From contig MGPB01000033.1 in the NCBI GenBank assembly GCA_001795455.1, positions 124,001 through 188,000 of the forward strand: 64,000 bases of DNA. Reading direction: 5' to 3'. Source of the stretch: Curvibacter sp. GWA2_63_95. Lineage in GTDB: Bacteria > Pseudomonadota > Gammaproteobacteria > Burkholderiales > Burkholderiaceae_C. Below, piece after piece: positions 17,362 through 30,697 of the stretch. Position numbers and translations under genes: made by a program. Below the pieces are notes generated by a model. The model ran no database searches. It was not told the origin of the DNA and was given only the letters and a program-made list of their open reading frames with translations. The number at the start of each line of letters is the position of its first letter. Position 1 is the first letter of the stretch.

Positions 17362-18168
17362 TCAAATCAGATTGCGCATGGCGCGCGCGGTTTCCTGCAA
17401 CACAGGCAGTACGCGGGCCACGGCGTCGTCGGTGGACTCATTTCCCATGGGCATGGTCACATTCAGCGCCCCCACCAGCACACTGTGCCGGTCCATCAGC
17501 GGCACCGCCACACCGCGGTGGTTCAGCTCCAGCTGTTGCTCCGAGATGGCCCAGCCCTGCTGGCGGATGCGCGCCAACTCTACGCGCAAGCGGTCTTTGC
17601 TGGCAATGGTGTGCGAGGTATAGGCGCGCAGGTCCCGGGTGGTGAGCCAACGCTCCAGCCACTCCGGCTCGCGCATGGACAGCAGCAGCATGCCCGCCGC
17701 CGTCACCTGCGCGGGCACCCGTGCACCCAGCACGTAGCCCGTATTCATGCTGCGGTTGGTGCCGTTGCGGGCGATATACACAATGTCATCGCCGTCCATC
17801 ACACACACGTAGGCAATCTCCTGCGTGCCCGCCGTCACGCGTTGCAAAAACGGCTGCACGATGCGCGGCAGCCGTGCCGATTCCAGGTAGGACTGGCCCA
17901 GCCGCAGCACGCGGGGCGTCAGCCAGAACAACTTGCCGTCGGTGGCCACATAACCGAGGTATTGCAGGGTCAGCAGGTAACGCCGCGCAGCGGTGCGTGT
18001 CATGCCACAGCGCTCACCGGCCTGGCTGGCGGTCATGCGGGGGTGGGCGTCGTCAAAGGTCTCAATGATGGACAGCCCTTTTTCCAGACCCGCGATCCAG
18101 TCTTTTTTGTCCAGCCCCGGTGTTTCAGGTTCGGTCTGGGCGGCAGGTGGGGTGGCAGTGCGTGGCAT
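17362..18168 (-). CDS. IclR-family regulator (PcaR/PobR-like)
   Basis: A 268-aa IclR regulator. The N-terminal HTH is preceded by KKDWIAGLEKGLSIIETFDDAHPRMTASQAG. This start and the line GMTRTAARRYLLTLQYLGYV are typical of the PcaR/PcaU/PobR branch that senses protocatechuate-pathway compounds. The C-terminal ligand domain includes the ASMRE-like LLSMREPEW stretch. The longer track start (18219) is less likely. It is divergent from the AroE-like gene, and the intergenic region holds palindromes of the expected kind. It probably controls the whole cluster to 26747. Confidence 0.88.
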   Translation of the reverse strand: MPRTATPPAAQTEPETPGLDKKDWIAGLEKGLSIIETFDDAHPRMTASQAGERCGMTRTAARRYLLTLQYLGYVATDGKLFWLTPRVLRLGQSYLESARLPRIVQPFLQRVTAGTQEIAYVCVMDGDDIVYIARNGTNRSMNTGYVLGARVPAQVTAAGMLLLSMREPEWLERWLTTRDLRAYTSHTIASKDRLRVELARIRQQGWAISEQQLELNHRGVAVPLMDRHSVLVGALNVTMPMGNESTDDAVARVLPVLQETARAMRNLI

Positions 18169-18346: not shown

Positions 18347-19282
18347 ATGCACTCCGCCGCCTTCCCCACGCTTTCAGGCACCACTGACGTTTACCTGATC
18401 GTCGGCTACCCGGTGGCCCAGGTGCAGGCGCCAGCCCTGTTCAATGCCGTGTTTGCCCGCGCAGGGCTGAACGCCGTGATGGTGCCCGTGGAAATTGCCC
18501 CCCTACACCTGCTGGCGTTTGTGAAGTCTGCGTTCCTGGCTCCCAACGTGCGGGGCCTGTGTGCCACCATTCCCCACAAGAGTGCGCTGGCCGACGCGAT
18601 GCACCGCAGCAGCCCCAGCGCCCACATGGCCGGCGCAGTGAATGCTGTGCGCCGCCATGCGGACGGACATTTGGAAGGTGAGCTGTTTGACGGCCAGGGC
18701 CTGCGCGCCGCGCTGGATTACTTTGGCATGGCCTACAGCGGTCGGCGCGTGCTGGTGCTGGGCGCCGGAGGGGCCGCCGCGGCCATCGCCACGGAACTGG
18801 CCAGCGCTGCGCCTCATGCAGCCGCCCAGGTCTGCCTCTATGACCCTGCACCCGGCAAAGCCCTGGCGTTGGCCAGGCGCATTGCCGCCGCTACCCCTGC
18901 GCCGGTTGCGGCCGTAACCACCAACGACCCTGCCGGGTTTGACCTGGTGATCAATGCCAGCCCGCTGGGCTTGCACCCCGACGATGCTCTGCCCTGCGAC
19001 GTGCAGCGCATGGAGCCCCATGCGGCTGTGATGGACATTGTGATGAAGCACCAGCCCAGCCGCTGGGTGCGCGCAGCGCGGGCCCGTGGCCTGCAGGCAC
19101 AACCCGGGTTTGAGATGCTGATCCAGCAAACCGTGCCGTATCTGGAGTTTTTTGGCCTGCACCAGGCTGCCCAGCTGGTGCGCGACGATGCCACCTTTCT
19201 GCGCGAGCAGATCTACCCCCACACGCTGCGCAGCGAGATCCGCGGGCGCGAGCCACACCGGCTGATCCCCGCGCTGCTCTGA
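18347..19282 (+). CDS. Shikimate/quinate dehydrogenase-like protein (AroE paralogue)
   Basis: An NAD(P)-dependent dehydrogenase of the AroE fold, 311 aa, distinct from the housekeeping aroE at 39019. The catalytic Lys (TIPHK), Asn (GAVNAV), Asp (ELFDGQG) and Rossmann motif (VLGAGGAAAAIA) are present. The substrate-carboxylate motif, normally HSxSP, reads QVQAP, so both Ser are lost. It probably oxidises quinate, shikimate or a related compound into the dehydroshikimate route served by downstream genes. It has no Shine-Dalgarno sequence before ATG 18347. It heads the catabolic operon, divergent from the IclR regulator. Confidence 0.82.
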   Translation: MHSAAFPTLSGTTDVYLIVGYPVAQVQAPALFNAVFARAGLNAVMVPVEIAPLHLLAFVKSAFLAPNVRGLCATIPHKSALADAMHRSSPSAHMAGAVNAVRRHADGHLEGELFDGQGLRAALDYFGMAYSGRRVLVLGAGGAAAAIATELASAAPHAAAQVCLYDPAPGKALALARRIAAATPAPVAAVTTNDPAGFDLVINASPLGLHPDDALPCDVQRMEPHAAVMDIVMKHQPSRWVRAARARGLQAQPGFEMLIQQTVPYLEFFGLHQAAQLVRDDATFLREQIYPHTLRSEIRGREPHRLIPALL

Positions 19283-19341: not shown

Positions 19342-20547
19342 ATGCAAAAACGAAACACTCTCAAATTGATAGCTGCTTGCGCAGCATTGGTGTGCTCTAC
19401 AGCCACTTTTGCCCAAGAAACCATCAAGATCGCCAACATTGTGGAGCTCTCCGGTGGTGGCGCCACCGCCGGCACCAACTTCAAGAACGGCGTGGAACTG
19501 GCCGTGAAGGAAATCAACGCCGCAGGCGGCATCTTGGGCAAGAAGATCCAGACCATCACCTCCGACACCCAGTCCAACCCTGGCGTGGCCAAGGGCCTGA
19601 CCCAGAAGGCCGTGGACGACGAGGTGTTTGCCATCTTCGGCCCCGTGTTCTCGGGCTCCATCATGGTGTCCATGGCGGAAAGCCGCAAAGCCGAAATCCC
19701 CAACTTCACGGGCGGTGAGGCGGCCAGCATCACCCTGCAGGGCAACCCCTACATCTTCCGCACCAGCTTCACCCAGGCCACTGCCATGCCCAAGGTGGGC
19801 CGCTACATCAGCGACACCGCCAAGCTCAAGACCTTGGCCGTGGTCTACGTGAACAACGACTTCGGCAAGGGCGGCCTGGACATGATCAAGAAGGCGCTGG
19901 ACAAGTCGTCCACCAAGGTGGTGGCCGAGATCTCCACCGACTCGGGCCAGGTGGACTTTTCTGCCGCCGTGCTCAAGGCCAAGCAAAGCGGCGCCGACGG
20001 CGTGTTCGTCTACTCCAACGAAGAAGAGTCTGCCCGCATGCTGCGCGAGCTGCGCAAGCAGGGCTGGAACAAACCCGTCATTGGAGAAACGACCCTCACC
20101 GGCCAAAAGGTGATTGAGCTGGCCGGCGAAGCCGCCAACGGCGCCGTGGCCCACGTGGGCCTGACGGTAGACGCCCCCCTACCCGCGATCCGCGCCTTCC
20201 GCGCCAAGTTCGAGCGTGACTACAAATACGTGTCCGACCACAACGGCATGAAGGGTTACTCCGGCGTCTACGTGCTCAAGGCCGCCATCGAAAAGGTGGG
20301 CAAGCTGGACCGCAAGGCCGTGGCCAACGCGCTGCACAGCCTGGTGGTGACCACCGACAAGGAGCCCGGCATCCTGATGAACGTGGCCTTTGACCAAAAC
20401 GGTGACCTGGACCGCGAGAGCTTTCTGGTGGAGGTGAAGAACGGCCAGCAAGTGGTGGTGGCCACCCTACCCCCGCTCAACCCGATTGCGGTGAACAAGC
20501 CCGCTGCAGCCCCTGCGGCCAAGCCAGCGGCGCCTGCCAAGAAGTAA
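19342..20547 (+). CDS. LivK-type periplasmic binding protein of the aromatic-cluster importer
   Basis: A 401-aa periplasmic receptor of the branched-chain/aromatic (HAAT) ABC family. The signal peptide ends ATFA-QETIK. The mature protein begins IKIANIVELSGGGATAGTNFKNG, and a Pro/Ala/Lys-rich tail of about 25 residues ends it. Ribosome-binding site GAGGAGA. Codons 5-14 lie in a dispersed repeat, which supplies the hydrophobic LKLIAACAA stretch of the signal peptide. The ligand is probably quinate, shikimate or an aromatic acid rather than an amino acid, judged only from the neighbours. Confidence 0.87.
   Translation: MQKRNTLKLIAACAALVCSTATFAQETIKIANIVELSGGGATAGTNFKNGVELAVKEINAAGGILGKKIQTITSDTQSNPGVAKGLTQKAVDDEVFAIFGPVFSGSIMVSMAESRKAEIPNFTGGEAASITLQGNPYIFRTSFTQATAMPKVGRYISDTAKLKTLAVVYVNNDFGKGGLDMIKKALDKSSTKVVAEISTDSGQVDFSAAVLKAKQSGADGVFVYSNEEESARMLRELRKQGWNKPVIGETTLTGQKVIELAGEAANGAVAHVGLTVDAPLPAIRAFRAKFERDYKYVSDHNGMKGYSGVYVLKAAIEKVGKLDRKAVANALHSLVVTTDKEPGILMNVAFDQNGDLDRESFLVEVKNGQQVVVATLPPLNPIAVNKPAAAPAAKPAAPAKK
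19356..19386 (+). repeat. Dispersed repeat core inside a signal-peptide region
   Basis: CACTCTCA followed by two variable bases and TTGATAGCTGCTTGCGCAG, nearly identical to 21523-21553 in the permease gene of the same operon. It is translated as part of the signal peptide. Confidence 0.7.
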
Positions 20548-20551
20548 ACCT

Positions 20552-20584
20552 GCCCGGCCCGGCCGCCATGCACCGCTGCCGGGC
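20552..20584 (+). other. Intercistronic hairpin
   Basis: GCCCGGC/GCCGGGC lies 4 bp after the binding-protein stop, without a long T-run. Such stems after binding-protein genes commonly protect the upstream message or reduce readthrough to the permease genes. Confidence 0.5.
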
Positions 20585-20617
20585 CTGCGTTTTCCACGTC
20601 ACACCGCGGGACCTCCC

Positions 20618-21493
20618 ATGACCGACTTCCTCCAACTGCTCTTCAGTGGCATGGCCACCGGGGCCATCTACGGCCTGGCCGCGCTGGGTTTTACCTTGCT
20701 GTGGCAGGCCAGCGGCACCATCAACTTCGCCCAGGGCGAGTTTGTAATGCTGCCGGCTTTCATGATGCTGGGCTTTTTGAGCCTGGGCGCACCCATGGCA
20801 GTGAGCTTTTCCATGTCCGTGGTGCTGGCGGTGTTTCTGCTGGGTTGGGTGTTCAAGCGCGGTCTGGTGGACCCGCTGTTCAAGTACGGCATGATGCCCA
20901 TCGTCGTGGCCACCATCGGCCTGTCGATTGCCATGCGCAACGGCTTGCGCGCCGGTTACAGCGCCGAGGCCCACCCCTTCCCCAGCCTGTTTGCCGACAA
21001 GCTGTTCAACATCGCCGGCGTGACCATCACCCTGGCCGATGTGGGCACCTTCAGCATTGCGCTGGTGCTGGTGTTTGCCACCCAGGCCTTCATGACCAAA
21101 ACCGTGACCGGCCGCGCCATGCAGGCCGTGGCGCAAAACACCGAGAGCGCCTCGGTGCTGGGCATCAACGTGCCGCGCATGATCTTCTACGCCTTTGCCA
21201 TCAACGCCGTGCTGGCGGTGGCAGCAGCCCTCCTGGTCACGCCCACGTATCTGGCCAAGTTCGACATGGGCGAGTCGCTGGGCAACAAGGCCTTCTTCGC
21301 GGCCATCATCGGCGGCTTCAACAACTCGCGCGGAGCGCTCTTGGGCGGGCTGATTGTGGGCGTGTGCGAGAACCTGGCCGCGGCCTATATCTCCCCGGCC
21401 TACAAGGACGCAGTCGCGCTGGTGATCTTCATGGTCGTGATTTTGTTCAAGCCGCAAGGCCTGCTGGGCAAAAAAGTGGAGCGCAAAGTCTGA
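20618..21493 (+). CDS. LivH-type ABC permease
   Basis: The first membrane subunit of the HAAT-family importer, 291 aa with about eight hydrophobic segments. The N-terminus (LLFSGMATGAIYGLAALGFTLLWQASGTINFAQGEF) is a LivH hallmark. The coupling motif near AQNTESASVLGINV and the late FFAAIIGGFNNSRGALLGGL also match. It follows the binding protein and precedes the LivM partner by 18 bp. Confidence 0.92.
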   Translation: MTDFLQLLFSGMATGAIYGLAALGFTLLWQASGTINFAQGEFVMLPAFMMLGFLSLGAPMAVSFSMSVVLAVFLLGWVFKRGLVDPLFKYGMMPIVVATIGLSIAMRNGLRAGYSAEAHPFPSLFADKLFNIAGVTITLADVGTFSIALVLVFATQAFMTKTVTGRAMQAVAQNTESASVLGINVPRMIFYAFAINAVLAVAAALLVTPTYLAKFDMGESLGNKAFFAAIIGGFNNSRGALLGGLIVGVCENLAAAYISPAYKDAVALVIFMVVILFKPQGLLGKKVERKV

Positions 21494-21511
21494 GTACCGC
21501 TGGACACCACC

Positions 21512-22495
21512 ATGAAAAAAATCACTCTCATTTTGATAGCTGCTTGCGCAGTACTGCTGCTGTCTGCACCGCCTTTTCTCAAGAATTACGGCATCTACCT
21601 GCTGTCCTACTGGCTGGTGTTTGTCATCGCCACCATGGGCCTGAACCTCACCGTGGGTTACGCCGGGCAAAAGTCCCTGGGCCATGCGGCCTTCTTCGGT
21701 ATCGGGGCCTACACCGTGGCCATCCTGATGAAAGCCGGCATCAGCTTCTGGCTGGGCCTGCCAGCCGCCGCATTCATCTGCTTTTTTGTCGGCATTGCGC
21801 TGGGATTTCCGGCGCTGCGGGTGCAGACCATTTACCTGGCCTTTGCCACCCTGGGCTTCAACACCGCGGTGTGGCTGGTCATGCGCAATGAAGAGTGGCT
21901 GACCGGGGGCACCTTCGGCATCAACAACATTGCCCGCCCCAGCCTGTTGGGCTTCTCGCTCGAAGGCAACCTCGCCTACTACTACTTTGTGCTGGCCACG
22001 GCGCTGCTGCTGGGCGCGCTGCAGTGGGGCCTGCTGCGCAGCCCCTGGGGCAAGGCGTTTACCGCGCTGCGCGACAACCCGATCCGTGCCGAGAGCCTGG
22101 GCATCAACACCCGCAGCTACACCTTGCTGAGCTTTGCGATTGGTGCGGTGTATGCGGGCATTGCCGGTGCGCTGTTTGCCTCGCTGGTGCAGTTCATCGA
22201 GCCCGCACCCTTCACCGTGGGTGCGTCCATCATGATGTACCTGATGGTCGTCGTCGGTGGCCCGGGTTACTTTTTGGGTCCGCTGCTGGGCTCCGCGGTG
22301 GGCGTGATCCTGCCGGAGTGGTTGCGCTTTGCGCAGGCCTGGTACCTGTTTGTCTTTGGCGCTGCCGTGGTGCTGTTGATGATCTGGCTGCCCGATGGAC
22401 TGCTGAGCATTCCCGACCGCATCAAGGCCAAGCGCCAGGCGCGCGAAGCCAGCGCCGCACGCGCGGCCGCCGCCCAACAACAGGGAGCCAAGTGA
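21512..22495 (+). CDS. LivM-type ABC permease
   Basis: The second membrane subunit, 327 aa. Family marks are MGLNLTVGYAGQKSLGHAAFFGIGAYT and the coupling region FTALRDNPIRAESLGINTRSY. The first transmembrane segment (ITLILIAACAVLLLSA) is encoded largely by the dispersed-repeat core, as in the binding-protein gene of this operon. A basic, Ala-rich C-terminus follows the last membrane segment. The stop overlaps the next gene's ATG (TGATG). Confidence 0.92.
   Translation: MKKITLILIAACAVLLLSAPPFLKNYGIYLLSYWLVFVIATMGLNLTVGYAGQKSLGHAAFFGIGAYTVAILMKAGISFWLGLPAAAFICFFVGIALGFPALRVQTIYLAFATLGFNTAVWLVMRNEEWLTGGTFGINNIARPSLLGFSLEGNLAYYYFVLATALLLGALQWGLLRSPWGKAFTALRDNPIRAESLGINTRSYTLLSFAIGAVYAGIAGALFASLVQFIEPAPFTVGASIMMYLMVVVGGPGYFLGPLLGSAVGVILPEWLRFAQAWYLFVFGAAVVLLMIWLPDGLLSIPDRIKAKRQAREASAARAAAAQQQGAK
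21523..21553 (+). repeat. Dispersed repeat core inside the LivM-type gene
   Basis: Same block as 19356-19386, differing at a few positions. It encodes part of the first transmembrane segment. Confidence 0.7.
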
Positions 22496-23253
22496 TGAGC
22501 CAGCCTGTCCTCAAAGTCAGCAATATCAAAAAGGCCTATGGCGCCATCCAGGCGGTAGGCGGTGTGTCCTTCGAAGTCATGCCCGGAGAAATCTTCGGCG
22601 TGATCGGGCCCAACGGCTCGGGCAAGACCACGCTGTTCAACAGCATGCTGGGCCAGATCACGCCGGACGCCGGAAAAATCGAACTCAAGGGCAAAGACGT
22701 GACCCACGCCGGTCCACTGGAGCTCAACCGCCTGGGTGTGGGCCGCACCTTCCAAACCCTGCAGGTGTTTGGCAAGATGACCGTGCGCGACAACCTCATC
22801 GTGGCCGCGCAGGAACACCAAGGCAGCATGCTGAGCCGCATGTTTGCCCCCAGCGATTCGGGCCTGGGCGCCAAGGCCGATGCGCTGATCGACCAGTTCC
22901 GCATCCGCCATGTGGCCGACAAAAAGGCTGGCGAGCTGAGCTATGGCCAGCAAAAGCTGGTGGACATTGCCATGGCCTTCATGAGCGAGCCCGACCTGGT
23001 GTTGCTGGACGAACCCTGCGCAGGTGTGAACCCCAGTCTGGTGGGTGGCATCAGCACTTTGCTGAAGGAGCTCAACCGCAACCCGAAGTTCGGCAAGAAG
23101 AGCTCCTTCGTCGTCATCGAGCACAACATGGACTTTGTGATGGACCTGTGCCACCGCATCATGGTGATGGTGGAAGGCCAGGTGCTGGCCATCGGTACAC
23201 CGGAAGAAATCCGCAGCAACAAACAGGTGCTGGACGCCTACCTCGGGAGCTGA
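22495..23253 (+). CDS. LivG-type ABC ATPase
   Basis: One of the two ATPases of the importer, 252 aa. Walker A GPNGSGKTT, the LSYGQQK signature, Walker B LVLLDEPCAGVNP and the VVIEHNMDFVMDLC H-loop region are as in LivG. The track begins this frame at 21895, but that part is out of frame with LivM. ATG 22495 overlaps the LivM stop, which implies translational coupling. Confidence 0.93.
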   Translation: MSQPVLKVSNIKKAYGAIQAVGGVSFEVMPGEIFGVIGPNGSGKTTLFNSMLGQITPDAGKIELKGKDVTHAGPLELNRLGVGRTFQTLQVFGKMTVRDNLIVAAQEHQGSMLSRMFAPSDSGLGAKADALIDQFRIRHVADKKAGELSYGQQKLVDIAMAFMSEPDLVLLDEPCAGVNPSLVGGISTLLKELNRNPKFGKKSSFVVIEHNMDFVMDLCHRIMVMVEGQVLAIGTPEEIRSNKQVLDAYLGS

Positions 23254-23256
23254 AGC

Positions 23257-24000
23257 ATGACCACAGACACCTGCATTGAATTCAAGGACGTGGTGGCGGG
23301 CTACAAGGATTTCATGATCCTGAACAACCTGTCGTTCAAAGCCAAGCGTGGCACCATCACCCTGCTGCTGGGCCCCAATGGCGCGGGCAAGTCCACGGTG
23401 CTCAAAACTTTGTTTGGCCTGCTCAAACCACGCCAGGGCGACATATTGCTGGACGGCGTGAGCGTGGCCGGCGCCAGCCAGAAGGCGCTGCTGGCCCAGG
23501 GCATTGCCTTTGTGCCGCAGGGGCGCAACCTGTTTGGCCAACTCAGCGTGTGGGAGAACCTGGAGCTGGGCGGCATTACGCTGGGCATGAAGACCACCCA
23601 CGAGCGCATTCCCGAGGTGCTGGAGTTCTTTCCGCGCGTGAAGGAGCGCCTGCACTCGGCGGCATCAGCCTTGTCGGGTGGCGAGCAAAAGCAGCTGGAG
23701 ATTGGCCGCGCACTGCTGCTGCGCCCCAAGGTCATCCTGATCGACGAGCCCTCCATCGGCCTCTCGCCCATGGTGGTGGCCGATGTGTTCAAACTCTTGC
23801 GCAAACTGGCCGACCAGGGAACGACGGTGCTCATGGTGGAGCAGAACGTGAAGAGCGCGCTGAAGATTTCGGACGAAGCCATTGCGTTGGAGTCGGGCCG
23901 CCTGGTGCTGCAAAAGCCGGCATCGGAATTGCTGGCAGACCCCAACATCGAGCGCTTGTTTTTGGGTGGCGCGCACACCACGGCTGCGACCACTGTTTAA
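23257..24000 (+). CDS. LivF-type ABC ATPase
   Basis: The second ATPase, 247 aa. Walker A GPNGAGKST, FVPQGRNLFGQLSVWENLELG (typical of LivF), signature LSGGEQKQLEIGRAL and Walker B VILIDEPSIGLSP are present. It starts 3 bp after the LivG-type gene and completes a five-gene importer whose ligand is likely an aromatic or alicyclic acid used by the flanking enzymes. Confidence 0.93.
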   Translation: MTTDTCIEFKDVVAGYKDFMILNNLSFKAKRGTITLLLGPNGAGKSTVLKTLFGLLKPRQGDILLDGVSVAGASQKALLAQGIAFVPQGRNLFGQLSVWENLELGGITLGMKTTHERIPEVLEFFPRVKERLHSAASALSGGEQKQLEIGRALLLRPKVILIDEPSIGLSPMVVADVFKLLRKLADQGTTVLMVEQNVKSALKISDEAIALESGRLVLQKPASELLADPNIERLFLGGAHTTAATTV

Positions 24001-24024: not shown

Positions 24025-24912
24025 ATGGCCGACACCTCCACACGCCCCAGCGGCGCTGACCGCGAACACATCGACGAAGGCCCCAACCCCCTGGGGCTGG
24101 AAGGCATCGAATTCATCGAGTACACCACCTCCAAGCCACAGGCCCTGGGTCAGGTGCTGGAGGCCATGGGTTTTCGCCCGATTGCGCGCCATCGCTCGCG
24201 CGAGGTGCTGTTGTACCGCCAGGGCGACATCAACGTCATCGTCAACGCCCACGGCCGCGGCGCGGCGCTGACCGAGAAACCGGTGATTGCCGCCATCGCC
24301 TTGCGCGTGCAGGACGCCACCGCCGCCTACCGCCGCGCGCTGGAGCGTGGTGCCTGGGCCGTGCCGGTGCAGGTAGAGGTGATGGAGCTGCACATCCCGG
24401 CCGTGCATGGCGTGGGCAACAGCCGCATCTACTTTGTCGACCGCCACCGCGAGTTCTCCATCTACGACGTGGACTTCACCCCCGTGCCCGCGGTAGAAAA
24501 AAACCCGCCCGCCATCACCGGCCTGCACTTCTTTGGGGTGGTGCAGTACATCGGCAACGACCGCGTGGACGACTGGACCGAGTTTTATGGTGCCCTGTTT
24601 GGCTTTACTGCGCTGGAGCCCGAAACCCGCTTTGGCATCTTGCCCAAGGGGCGTATTCTGCAAAGCCCCTGCAAGACCTTCTATCTGCAGCTCATCGAGC
24701 CCGAACCCGGCGTGCTGGATGTGGAGGACGATGAATGTTTCCAGCGCGTGGGCCTGGGCACCCCCGATGTGAAAGCCACCGTCGCCGCACTGCGCGCGCG
24801 CGGCGTGGACTTTGTGCCGTCCAAAGACCCGACGCAGGACGACAAGGGCGCGCTCACCCGCCCCACCATGGGCAACGCCATGTTCGAGCTGGTTCACCAC
24901 GTGCGGAGCTAG
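24025..24912 (+). CDS. Stand-alone HPPD-like VOC protein (QuiC C-terminal-domain homologue)
   Basis: A 295-aa vicinal-oxygen-chelate protein resembling 4-hydroxyphenylpyruvate dioxygenase and, more relevantly, the C-terminal domain of the fused QuiC dehydroshikimate dehydratase. It starts NPLGLEGIEFIEYTTSKPQALG and has the HPPD-like line HRSREVLLYRQGDINVIVN. Of the three HPPD metal ligands (His, His, Glu), the matching motifs read LHFFGVV (His), CFQRVGLG (Arg instead of His) and MFELVHH (Glu). Dioxygenase activity is therefore doubtful. ATG 24025 with GGGAGA is preferred over the TTG at 24007. The TIM-barrel half of QuiC follows 6 bp downstream. Confidence 0.75.
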   Translation: MADTSTRPSGADREHIDEGPNPLGLEGIEFIEYTTSKPQALGQVLEAMGFRPIARHRSREVLLYRQGDINVIVNAHGRGAALTEKPVIAAIALRVQDATAAYRRALERGAWAVPVQVEVMELHIPAVHGVGNSRIYFVDRHREFSIYDVDFTPVPAVEKNPPAITGLHFFGVVQYIGNDRVDDWTEFYGALFGFTALEPETRFGILPKGRILQSPCKTFYLQLIEPEPGVLDVEDDECFQRVGLGTPDVKATVAALRARGVDFVPSKDPTQDDKGALTRPTMGNAMFELVHHVRS

Positions 24913-24918
24913 ACCACC

Positions 24919-25821
24919 ATGAGCCAATTCGAAGGCAAATTTGACGACTTCGGGATGGACACCATCTCGCTGGCGGGTCCACTCAAGGCCAAGCTCTCCG
25001 CCATGAAGGCCGCCGGCTTCACCCAGGTGATGCTGCTGGCGCGTGATCTGGTGGGCCACCCCGATGGCTGGCAAGCCGCCGTGCAGGAAGTGAAAGACAG
25101 CGGCCTGCGCGTCACCGGTTTTCAGGTGCTGCGCGACTTTGAGGGCCTGAGTGGCCACCTGCACGCGTACAAGATGGACATCGCCAAGAGCATGATGGAG
25201 ATGTGCGCCGCACTGGACTGCCGTGTCATGCTGGCCTGCTCCAGCACGTCCACCCACGCCACCGGCGACACCGACGCCTTGGTCAAAGACCTGCGCAAGC
25301 TGGCGATGCTGGCCATCCCCATGAACATCAAGATCGCGTTTGAGGCGCTGTCCTGGGGCCGCACCATCAACGAGTTTCCGCAGGCCTGGGACCTCATCAT
25401 GCAGGCCGACATGCCCAACCTGGGCCTGGGCTTTGACTCCTTCCATATGTTCGCCACCAAGACGCCGCTGGAGGATCTGGAGATTCTGGACCCCAGCAAG
25501 ATCTTCCTGGTGCAGCTGGCCGATTTCATGTGGAACGAAATCAAGACCGTGGAAGAGCGCATCACCACAGCACGCACCTTCCGCGTGTTCCCCGGCGAAG
25601 GCGTGCACAGCGAGGCCCTGGCCGAGCTGGTACTCAAGCTGCACCAGCTGGGCTACCGCGGCGACTACAGCTTTGAAGTGTTCAACGACGACTACCAGCA
25701 GATGCCGCTGGAGACCGTGGCCGCACGCGCACGCCGTGCTGCGCTGTGGCTGGGTGAAGACGTGCTGCGCCGTTCCGTGCCCCTGCCCAACCAGCTGCGC
25801 CTGAAACAAGCCGTGCGCTGA
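24919..25821 (+). CDS. 3-dehydroshikimate dehydratase-like TIM-barrel protein (QuiC N-terminal-domain homologue)
   Basis: A 300-aa protein of the sugar-phosphate-isomerase/AP-endonuclease-2 fold, matching the catalytic N-terminal domain of QuiC. That domain converts 3-dehydroshikimate to protocatechuate. Metal-ligand motifs are in order: AFEALSWGR (Glu), LGLGFDSFHM (Asp), FLVQLADFM (Gln) and YSFEVFNDDY (Glu). In Pseudomonas QuiC this domain is fused in front of the HPPD-like domain. Here the two are separate genes in the opposite order. A metal-dependent dehydratase is the best guess, with another sugar-acid isomerase possible. Confidence 0.78.
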   Translation: MSQFEGKFDDFGMDTISLAGPLKAKLSAMKAAGFTQVMLLARDLVGHPDGWQAAVQEVKDSGLRVTGFQVLRDFEGLSGHLHAYKMDIAKSMMEMCAALDCRVMLACSSTSTHATGDTDALVKDLRKLAMLAIPMNIKIAFEALSWGRTINEFPQAWDLIMQADMPNLGLGFDSFHMFATKTPLEDLEILDPSKIFLVQLADFMWNEIKTVEERITTARTFRVFPGEGVHSEALAELVLKLHQLGYRGDYSFEVFNDDYQQMPLETVAARARRAALWLGEDVLRRSVPLPNQLRLKQAVR

Positions 25822-25826
25822 ATGCC

Positions 25827-26747
25827 ATGAGCAGTGTGTTTGACGACTTCTTGCACCCGCCCGAGGTGCTGGATGCCTTTGGCGCCCAGCGCTTTGTGGC
25901 GGCCATGCTGCGCGTGGAATCCGCGCTGGCCCAAGCGCAGGCCCATTGCGGCATGATTCCGGCCTCGGCCGCACAGTCTATCGTTGGCACCTGCAAGGTC
26001 GACCTGTTTGATGCGCCCCGCATCGTGCGCGACAGCGGCCGTGCGGGCAGCCTGGCCATACCCCTGGTCAAAAGCCTCAAGGAAACGGTAGGCCTGTTCA
26101 ACCCCGAGGCGGTGCCCTATGTGCACTTTGCCTGCACCAAACAAGACTTGGTGGACACGGCCACGGTGCTCATCACGCGCGATGTGCTGGAGCGGCTGCG
26201 CGGCGATGTGCAACGCTGCGCGCACATCCTGCAGACGCTGGGCGCCTCAGATGCAGCTGCCCCCCTGTTGCGGGGGCTGCAACGGCTGGCGCATAGCGCG
26301 ACGGATGCGCTGGCAGTGCAACTGGGTGGCACGCTGGCGCAAAGCCCAGAACACGGGGCCGATGTGGTGCGTGATGTCGCCCAGCGCCTGGATCTGGCTG
26401 TGCCCGCAGCTCCCTGGCACACCCAGCGCGACGCCTGGGTGGCGCTGGGTTGCGATGTGGGCCTGCTGATTGGCAGCCTGGGCACCCTGGCCAAAGGCAT
26501 TGCACGTGATGCCGGCCCGGAGCAAGTGCCCGCTGGCTGCCTGGTCGCCCTGGCCATGGCCAAACGTGCGCCACAGCGGGTGGCCAGCCTGTTAGCCTCG
26601 ATGCCCGAGGCCTACGAGCGCGGCCTGGGCGTGTGGCAGGCCGAACAGGCAGACTGGGCACAGCTGCTCATGTCCGCCCACGCCAGCGCCAGCGGTGTGT
26701 GCCATGCATTACAAACCGACACCAAGGTACGAACTGAGCAGGTGTGA
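25827..26747 (+). CDS. PcaB-like protein lacking the fumarase-superfamily signature
   Basis: A 306-aa homologue of 3-carboxy-cis,cis-muconate cycloisomerase (fumarase/argininosuccinate-lyase superfamily). PcaB is usually about 350-450 aa. The start FDDFLHPPEVLDAFGAQRFVAAMLRVESALAQAQ and the line VALAMAKRAPQRVASLLASMPEAYERGLGVWQAE align with the family. The GSSxMPxKxNP loop that should lie just before the latter is missing (DAGPEQVPAGCLVAL instead), and the earlier TSQD motif reads TKQD. Reading frame and codon use are normal, so this looks like a maintained but altered paralogue rather than fresh decay. It starts 5 bp after the dehydratase gene and ends the operon. Confidence 0.72.
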   Translation: MSSVFDDFLHPPEVLDAFGAQRFVAAMLRVESALAQAQAHCGMIPASAAQSIVGTCKVDLFDAPRIVRDSGRAGSLAIPLVKSLKETVGLFNPEAVPYVHFACTKQDLVDTATVLITRDVLERLRGDVQRCAHILQTLGASDAAAPLLRGLQRLAHSATDALAVQLGGTLAQSPEHGADVVRDVAQRLDLAVPAAPWHTQRDAWVALGCDVGLLIGSLGTLAKGIARDAGPEQVPAGCLVALAMAKRAPQRVASLLASMPEAYERGLGVWQAEQADWAQLLMSAHASASGVCHALQTDTKVRTEQV

Positions 26748-27285: not shown

Positions 27286-27987
27286 CTACACCCAAGGCAG
27301 CGGCAACTCCTCTTTGTCAAATGCTCGCTGTACTGCCGGACGAGCCAGAACGCGCGCTAACCATGGACCAATGTGCGAAAAATCCCTTGCCTTGCGTCCT
27401 TCAAAATTGCGGGTCCAACGACACAGCATCATCCCGTACACGTCTAGTACGCTGAACGTCGTGCCCAACATCCAAGGTGCCGCTGTTGTAGCAAGGTGCA
27501 TTTCAATTTGTTCCAACAAGAACAGAACACGCTGCTGTGCATGTGATTTGATCTGCTCAATGGCATGAACGGAATCGGCCCAGCGCTCTGGGTAAAAGTA
27601 CACGATTAGCGCTTGCTGCAAAGTAGTCGAAAACCAACTGAGCCACTTATATGCATGTGCACGCTCTACGCTTCCCATTCTGGGCATCAATCCCGCATCT
27701 GGGTGAGTGTCGGCCAGATGCAAGCAGATCGCAGCAGTCTCGTACAACACCAGATCGCCTTCCACCAGCACCGGAATAAGTCCGTTAGGGTTGAGTGCGC
27801 GGTACGCTTCAGAATCAAGGCCGCCGCCGTCTTTGTCAATTTTTATCAACTCGAACGGGATTTCCAACTCCTCCAAAAGAATATGCGGCGCCATGCTGGC
27901 GGCACTGGGAAAGTAATGCAATTGAATGGCAGAACTTCTTGTTGTATTTGCAGTTTGGGACGAATGGTCGTGCATATTGCTTTGCAT
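27286..27987 (-). CDS. Glutathione S-transferase family protein
   Basis: A 233-aa cytosolic protein with an N-terminal thioredoxin-like domain (IQLHYFPSAASMAPHILLEELEIPFELI, then NPNGLIPVLVEGDLVLYETAAICLHLAD with the cis-Pro and the Glu-Thr pair that binds glutathione). A helical C-terminal domain follows. The active-site region carries Ser residues (SAASMAP), as in beta/theta-like or GstA-type proteins. ATG 27987 or 27972 is more plausible than the track start at 28032. It is divergent from the arginase-fold gene and sits in the lower-G+C accessory stretch. Substrate is unknown. Confidence 0.85.
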   Translation of the reverse strand: MQSNMHDHSSQTANTTRSSAIQLHYFPSAASMAPHILLEELEIPFELIKIDKDGGGLDSEAYRALNPNGLIPVLVEGDLVLYETAAICLHLADTHPDAGLMPRMGSVERAHAYKWLSWFSTTLQQALIVYFYPERWADSVHAIEQIKSHAQQRVLFLLEQIEMHLATTAAPWMLGTTFSVLDVYGMMLCRWTRNFEGRKARDFSHIGPWLARVLARPAVQRAFDKEELPLPWV

Positions 27988-28015
27988 AATACCTGCGCGA
28001 CCATTGAAAATAGAT

Positions 28016-28879
28016 ATGCAAAATTCCAACATTCATGCAAAAAGGCATCCAAGTAAACCGGCATCTCTGACCATGTTCTTGGGGCGGGTGGGTGACCGCA
28101 ACCCATTGGGCATGCTTGGTTCAAAGCATTTAGGAGAGGCTTTGGCGCTGCGAATTGGATTGACGCCAAATACGCTGGGGACTCCCGCGCCACCGTTGTC
28201 TGCCAAATGGGATATTGAGCTGGAAGCTGCACGCCCCGGACTGACTGCGCTATCGTCTTCACTGGCGCAGACTTTCGAGCGCGGTGAAATTCCTGTAACA
28301 ACACTGGGACGGTGCGCCGCATCCTTGGGCACGCTACCCGTGGTGTCGCGATATCGTCCGGATGCGGTCGTTGTGTGGTTTGACGCACATGCGGACAGCA
28401 ACCTGCCAAGCACCTCGGAATCTGGTTATCTCGGCGGTCTAGTGCTGACTGGCGCCGCCGGTCTTTGGCATACCGGTTTACCCGGAGGTTTGAAGCTCCA
28501 CAACGTCGTACTGGTCGGGGCGCGTGACATTGATGCTGGTGAACAATTACTGATTGATAGCAAACAACTAATGCTGGTGAAAGCAGGCAGCGATTTGGCC
28601 CAGCGACTAGCTGAGGCCATCGGGGACAGACCGGTGTATGTGCACATTGACTGCGATGTTCTGGAGCCCGGCACTGTGCCAACAGAATATCTAGTACCTG
28701 GTGGTCTGACGGTGGCCGATTTGCAGCAAGCAGCGACAGTTTTAGCAAAGAACGAACTCGTCGGACTTGAAATTTCTGAATTTCAGGCTTGTTGGTCTAC
28801 AAATGGAATGGTTGCATCACCAGAACCTCTGATTGATGCGCTGCAGCCACTCTTGTCCAAATTTTTGGCTGATGAATAG
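28016..28879 (+). CDS. Arginase-fold protein with altered first metal motif
   Basis: A ureohydrolase-superfamily protein of about 287 aa. The DAHAD motif (VVVWFDAHADSNLP) and HIDCDVLEPG are present, so four Asp/His ligands remain. The first motif, normally GGDHS, reads LGRCAASLG, replacing the metal-binding His by Cys or Ala. I recall a subgroup of arginase-like proteins with GNC or similar at this point, whose substrates are unknown. The start is uncertain: ATG 28016 is used here, but ATG 28073 (MFLGRVGDRNP) is also reasonable. It is divergent from a GST gene, with the two starts only a few tens of bases apart. Confidence 0.75.
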   Translation: MQNSNIHAKRHPSKPASLTMFLGRVGDRNPLGMLGSKHLGEALALRIGLTPNTLGTPAPPLSAKWDIELEAARPGLTALSSSLAQTFERGEIPVTTLGRCAASLGTLPVVSRYRPDAVVVWFDAHADSNLPSTSESGYLGGLVLTGAAGLWHTGLPGGLKLHNVVLVGARDIDAGEQLLIDSKQLMLVKAGSDLAQRLAEAIGDRPVYVHIDCDVLEPGTVPTEYLVPGGLTVADLQQAATVLAKNELVGLEISEFQACWSTNGMVASPEPLIDALQPLLSKFLADE

Positions 28880-30250: not shown

Positions 30251-30658
30251 TCAGACCTGCCCGCCCACGACCTCGTTGGCAGTGCGAAACGCTTCCACCG
30301 ATGCGGGCACGCCGCAGTACACCGCGGCGTGCAGCAGCACCTCTTGAATCTCTGCCGCCGTAGCGCCATTATTGAGCGCGCCGCGCACGTGTCCCTTGAG
30401 TTCGTTCTGTTTGCCCAGCGCCGTGAGCATGGCCACGGTGATGAGGCTGCGGGTTTTCAGATCCAGCCCCGGGCGCTGCCACACGTCGCCCCAGGCGGCA
30501 CGTGTGATGTGCTCTTGGATGGGGGCGGTGAATGGTGTGGCGTTGGCAAAGGCTGCCTCCACAAAGGCCTCGCCCATCACCTGCGTGCGCATGGCCAGGC
30601 CTTTGTCGAAGGCTTCAGCTTGGTTCGAAGGGGGCAAGCGGTTGGGGTCCAGGGGCAT
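30251..30658 (-). CDS. Carboxymuconolactone decarboxylase family protein (PcaC-like)
   Basis: A 135-aa all-helical protein of the CMD/AhpD fold. The lines WGDVWQRPGLDLKTRSLITVAMLTALGKQNELKGHVRGALNNGAT and EVLLHAAVYCGVPASVEAFR are very close to PcaC. PcaC removes CO2 from 4-carboxymuconolactone in the protocatechuate pathway. No other pca gene is adjacent, although a PcaB-like gene lies 3.5 kb away, so a pathway role is possible but unproven. ATG 30658 has GGAG six bases upstream. The alternative start 30670 lacks one. Confidence 0.88.
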   Translation of the reverse strand: MPLDPNRLPPSNQAEAFDKGLAMRTQVMGEAFVEAAFANATPFTAPIQEHITRAAWGDVWQRPGLDLKTRSLITVAMLTALGKQNELKGHVRGALNNGATAAEIQEVLLHAAVYCGVPASVEAFRTANEVVGGQV

Positions 30659-30697
30659 GCGAGGCTCCATCAGGGCAAGGTGGCGATGCCCTGGATG

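Follow-up and report, generated by a model that had tools for sequence, protein, structure and literature searches.

The PcaB-like gene and its operon

The window analysed here is a 64,000-nucleotide stretch of DNA from Curvibacter sp. GWA2_63_95 (contig MGPB01000033.1); among named organisms, Rhodoferax species are the closest (90 and 82% identity). The gene under study is the last one of an operon, and the features of the locus are as follows (window coordinates, strand).

17362..18168, -: divergent regulator of the IclR type, with PcaR/PcaU as its closest family (269.6 bits, cut-off 284.75)
18347..19282, +: gene resembling quinate/shikimate dehydrogenase, upstream of the transporter genes
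19342..24000, +: Liv-type ABC transporter (binding protein, two permeases, two ATPases)
24025..24912, +: HPPD-like VOC protein, equivalent to the C-terminal half of QuiC but encoded by its own gene; of the three iron ligands of HPPD, two are replaced
24919..25821, +: 3-dehydroshikimate dehydratase (DSD), equivalent to the TIM-barrel half of QuiC; the alignment, as read, shows intact catalytic positions
25827..26747, +: predicted PcaB-like pseudoenzyme, 306 aa (from PcaB comparison, predicted fold and orthologues)
26136..26147, +: TKQD replacing the C1 motif TSQD, residues 104-107
26241..26267, +: site of the lost C2 segment, residues ~139-147, ~23-27 aa gone
26496..26525, +: site of the lost C3 loop, residues ~224-233, ~21-27 aa gone
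30251..30670, -: PcaC-like decarboxylase gene, outside the operon (TIGR02425 154.6 bits, cut-off 155.7)

The DSD and VOC proteins matched the two halves of QuiC1 (5HMQ), and an alignment read by eye indicated that DSD retains the catalytic positions listed for QuiC1/QsuB (PMC7442255). In the VOC protein, two iron ligands were replaced (His to Gln or a gap, and His to Arg) in all orthologues aligned, and the protein was among the most conserved of the operon (dN/dS 0.005-0.08). Judging from its sequence, VOC is probably a second non-catalytic homologue beside DSD. The HPPD-like domain of QsuB is likewise non-catalytic; no activity was found for it, and a role as an oligomerisation aid has been proposed (PMC7442255). 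VOC is unlikely to be an alternative protocatechuate dioxygenase feeding PcaB, because the two ligands are replaced in every orthologue, and the equivalent QsuB domain showed no such activity (PMC7442255).

Farther downstream, a GST-like ORF (27286-28032, -) overlapped an arginase-family ORF (27926-28879, +) by approximately 100 bp; one of the two start codons is probably mis-set, because both ORFs have Pfam support.

The PcaB-like ORF begins 5 bp downstream of the stop codon of DSD. Its product matched PcaB (3-carboxy-cis,cis-muconate cycloisomerase) structure 1RE5 with an E value of 7e-37 (phmmer) in three blocks, and the catalytic parts were missing between the blocks. The preliminary description had reported that the GSSxMPxKxNP loop (C3) is deleted, that TSQD reads TKQD, and that the gene sits in an operon. 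All three statements were borne out: the match to 1RE5 was interrupted at query residues 226/231 against 255/281; residues 104-107 are TKQD, which departs from the C1 pattern T(S/T)QD; and the order Liv-type transporter, VOC, DSD, PcaB-like was found, within contig reach, with the 300-aa, 270-aa, and most 400-aa forms described below. The further statement that the rest of the protein and its frame are intact held for the frame and the core fold but not for the remainder. The C2 segment (GRTWLQHATP-type, ARTLMQPASVTSFG) is gone between query residues 139-147 (~149-173 of 1RE5), the pattern (G/A)R(T/S)xxQxAxxxxxG has no match in the 306-aa protein, and the C-terminal domain of ~120 residues is missing as well (306 aa against ~450; the match stops at 326 of 450).

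The PcaB equivalog model TIGR02426 gave 179.1 bits, below its curated cut-off of 355.75; scores elsewhere were 40.1 (L060), 338.3 (L036), and 376.2 bits for the PcaB of genome G178. Pfam Lyase_1 was passed (32.3 bits, cut-off 27). The AlphaFold model (pLDDT 89.1, pTM 0.88) superposed on the PcaB structures 1RE5 and 1Q5N with TM scores of 0.86-0.89 normalised by the query; as modelled, the protein has the fold of the fumarase/aspartase (Lyase_1) superfamily. H100, Q106, D107, and the WxxQRD segment were retained across the 300-aa clade. Read from the alignment, the catalytic residues of the family have been lost from the window protein, and the short forms would be devoid of cycloisomerase activity. 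Takeover of the function by another PcaB copy was ruled out, as no second homologue was found at E 0.001 in the 3.88 Mb window genome (99.9% complete).

Conservation and selection among orthologues

The preliminary description had proposed looking for orthologues with the same deletion and measuring dN/dS, and had named a sequencing gap or progressively decaying orthologues as evidence against its reading. Of 103 genomes of the genus, 12 shared the ~300-aa form without stops; in four the protein was ~400 aa long and still had the segments, and in one an N-terminal fragment was all that was left. In the set of relatives, the gene lay beside DSD in all seven DSD-bearing genomes of the genus; these counts and those from fetched contigs are not additive, since some of the loci (e.g. 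L031, L141) probably belong to the same species as some of the genomes. A sequencing gap or a local frameshift was ruled out by the same form in 12 genomes, a recurrence beyond chance.

The dN/dS values among the 300-aa forms were 0.06-0.22 (NG86), well below 1; for the pair of the window and L068, the estimate was 0.35 with Biopython's NG86 and 0.15 with YN00. In the closest pairs, L004 and L005 differed at eight of 663 nonsynonymous and 39 of 231 synonymous sites, and L002 and L032 at 15 of 662 and 50 of 229, respectively. Furthermore, 12 + 6 short genes (300-aa and 270-aa forms) were free of stops and frameshifts. The protein is thus maintained by selection, and a pseudogene was ruled out for both of these clades; what stood of the concern about decay was a graded erosion of motifs from the 400-aa forms downward.

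These numbers also bear on the main rival explanation, a slowly decaying relic that lost its purpose with PcaGH, is under weak constraint, and moves toward loss by in-frame deletions. We regard it as unlikely, although several observations suit it. The lengths form a graded series (450, 400, 300, 270, 174, and 166 aa), and the gene evolved 3-6 times faster than its neighbours (VOC, DSD, and transporter ATPases, dN/dS 0.01-0.08). In addition, there are the remnants at L012 and L046, a locus (L042) where DSD has lost its catalytic residues as well, and the many DSD loci, the majority, without a PcaB-like gene. Against it, the low dN/dS was measured in recent pairs that diverged later than the deletions, all the short genes above had open frames, and the gene was kept in seven of seven DSD-bearing genomes of the genus in the set of relatives.

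The conservation was concentrated in the N-terminal part. Between the 300-aa and 270-aa clades, identity averaged 0.65 in residues 22-45, 0.59 in residues 46-73, and 0.48 in residues 74-100, but 0.25-0.33 past residue 141, whereas canonical PcaBs showed 0.65, 0.42, and 0.57 in the same N-terminal blocks and 0.59-0.72 past residue 141. Unlike in canonical PcaB, residues 22-100 are therefore the best-conserved part of the short forms. Because dS of this part was not consistently below that of the rest of the gene, the constraint acts at the protein level, and nucleotide-level constraint was ruled out. The residues invariant across the short clades were mostly hydrophobic or structural and lay in the N-terminal domain, and the pocket residues differed between the two short lineages. 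Such a pattern is more in keeping with an interaction surface than with a ligand pocket.

The preliminary description had suggested that the function has changed, for instance to the binding of an intermediate of the pathway, or that the protein is a new enzyme. Loss of the cycloisomerase chemistry is supported by the conserved deletions, the dN/dS values, the conserved operon, and the absence of PcaGH; the two specific roles gained no support from the divergent pocket and the conserved N-terminal domain. A sensor or buffer that binds the intermediate without catalysis would be consistent with the retention of H100, Q106, D107, and WxxQRD in the 300-aa clade, but it is improbable: the 270-aa clade lacks the histidine, the C1 motif, and QRD, both short clades lack the pocket-completing C2 and C3, and 3-carboxymuconate is not expected in such cells. 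Still less probable is a new enzyme with an active site rebuilt on the same fold; purifying selection, the operon context, and near-intact motifs in the 400-aa forms of a few PcaH-less genomes would agree with it, but the short clades share no conserved set of new polar residues, and their invariant residues are of the kind described above.

Parallel losses and PcaH

Limnohabitans-type genomes carried a form of 271-299 aa (the 270-aa form), in which C2 and C3 are gone and C1 is destroyed, the histidine and QRD being lost with it. Its dN/dS was 0.12-0.22, and it was predicted to be folded (pLDDT 85.7), with PcaB as the nearest structure. The tree of VOC and DSD rejected the 300-aa and 270-aa forms as a single clade (p-AU 0.00013), whereas the PcaB-like tree left such a clade standing (p-AU 0.61). 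From the partner-gene tree we infer that the two short forms arose independently, on the premise that the operon travelled as a unit, because the PcaB-like tree itself does not decide.

Other lineages showed further stages. In genus g120, G178 is PcaH-positive and has GGSSAMPHKRNPVA, while G272 is PcaH-negative and has only that loop (C3) deleted (GRSAAACMVAL against GRGGSSAMPHKRNPVACMVAL in G178). Drifted C3 motifs were seen in the 400-aa forms L033, L034, L006, L035, and L036 (GGPSNMPHKHNP, GASSDMPYKNNP, GASSDMPHKNNP, GSSTAMLHKHNP, and GGSSDMEHKRNP, respectively), and every motif of the PcaB-like protein of L042 was destroyed by substitution. By sequence comparison, three or more lineages of freshwater and soil bacteria, all without the step that would supply PcaB, have lost the catalytic segments, and in two of them a folded protein is demonstrably still preserved by selection.

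Several loci deserve a separate description. At L042 (3256-7185), DSD has also lost catalytic residues (the Glu of FEAL, the His of DSFH, and the segment after QLADF), and both frames are open. Two isolated remnants of 166-185 aa stood at the end of the graded erosion. The ORFs of L046 (2516-3040, 174 aa) and L012 (1411-1911, 166 aa) consist of the N-terminal part (SIIGTCKVDLFDVAKIVRE) and what is left of the C-terminal tail, fused in frame with no middle part between them; L046 follows VOC-DSD directly and keeps the N-terminal 140 residues. They may be minimal forms or remnants, possibly pseudogenes, and misassembly is possible in these metagenome assemblies. L011 (1501-2895, genome G045) encodes a distant 464-aa PcaB relative among other neighbouring genes; it reads SHQD where TSQD is expected, and no GSSxMPxKxNP is recognisable (TPGSLPPRPRTPTS).

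The state of the PcaB-like gene largely paralleled that of PcaH (protocatechuate 3,4-dioxygenase). The window genome had no PF00775 or TIGR02422 match, i.e. no intradiol dioxygenase or PcaH, and contained LigB-family extradiol enzymes. TIGR02422 (PcaH) exceeded its cut-off in every genome whose PcaB stands in a pca context, but in no genome with a deleted or drifted form; such an absence counts less where the genome is a draft or comes from a metagenome. When the genomes were tabulated in 35 rows, L043 and L044 sharing one row, canonical C3 was found in 11 of 11 PcaH-positive and 3 of 24 PcaH-negative rows (Fisher p 9e-7, kinship uncorrected). Three genomes without PcaH (G086, G238, and G124) still had a near-canonical C3, which could mean that PcaH was lost recently or that the enzyme serves another purpose. 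Because genomes with deleted forms lack PcaH, the substrate of PcaB should not be made, and 3-carboxymuconate is expected to be absent from these cells. Several genomes of the genus have kept the PcaC-like gene close to the operon despite lacking PcaGH.

Proposed role and known systems

We consider it reasonably probable (roughly 0.62) that the gene encodes a PcaB-derived pseudoenzyme kept by selection after a pathway switch, most likely as a non-catalytic partner protein. The ancestral operon would have comprised transporter, VOC, DSD, and PcaB, in some cases with PcaC and PcaD, serving shikimate-type uptake and leading protocatechuate into ortho cleavage via PcaGH, PcaB, PcaC, and PcaD, as in G178, where PcaB-PcaC-PcaD follow DSD and PcaH is located elsewhere. 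PcaGH would then have been lost and protocatechuate rerouted to 4,5-cleavage. Because this loss leaves PcaB without a substrate, its catalytic parts would have been free to go, by decay or deletion and separately in several lineages, whereas the helical core persisted. Purifying selection may now hold the protein for a non-catalytic job. Most likely its N-terminal domain would contact DSD and/or VOC, which are probably co-translated with it, and thereby stabilise or tune protocatechuate formation; either is an obvious partner candidate because of the probable co-translation and the fixed linkage.

DSD was present in 104 of 301 genomes of the family, and a PcaB-like ORF lay within 2.5 kb downstream at 5 of the 40 VOC-DSD loci fetched, which were chosen non-randomly. 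Many genomes with DSD do without the gene, which is absent from most VOC-DSD loci of the family; any role toward DSD is thus lineage-specific, and an obligatory DSD subunit as a general rule was ruled out by the common DSD-VOC pairs without it. A more specific proposal, on balance doubtful, is that the short form is a repeatedly evolved non-catalytic subunit of a complex of DSD, metal-less VOC, and PcaB pseudoenzyme. If true, two dead enzyme homologues would have been recruited around one live enzyme, DSD.

The literature searched contained no description of a bacterial pseudoenzyme of PcaB or of the fumarase superfamily, and the present protein would be a case of this kind, produced by excisions of catalytic segments that recurred between lineages. 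The path from metabolic enzyme to pseudoenzyme can thus be followed in genomes as a natural series: its trigger would be that the upstream dioxygenase was lost, and there are graded intermediates, deletions in parallel, and a before/after pair from one genus (G178 and G272). There is also an annotation risk, since short forms called cycloisomerases would imply a beta-ketoadipate pathway that is absent.

PcaB itself (1RE5, 1Q5N, 2FEL; TIGR02426) shares common descent with the window protein, a similar N-terminal and central helical fold, and the position after DSD in relatives such as G178; the window protein differs in lacking C2, C3, and the C-terminal domain, in reading TKQD, and in a genome without PcaGH. 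The two-domain DSDs QuiC1/QsuB (5HMQ; NF042435) correspond, by their two halves, to the two genes preceding the PcaB-like gene, and their HPPD-like domain is a further homologue for which no activity was found, with the same proposed aid to oligomerisation (PMC7442255). The halves are separate genes in the window, however, and the window VOC has lost iron ligands; the PcaB-like protein is non-homologous to QuiC1/QsuB and absent from QuiC1 systems. Because the operon seems to gather non-catalytic homologues around DSD, the unexplained HPPD-like half of the two-domain enzymes becomes testable. The delta-1 form of delta-crystallin, a relative of argininosuccinate lyase, is inactive. Delta-crystallin is likewise a fumarase-superfamily protein, and one that serves a non-enzymatic role (reviewed in PMC10211241), but it keeps the full length and the motif loops, whereas in the PcaB-like protein the catalytic segments have been excised.
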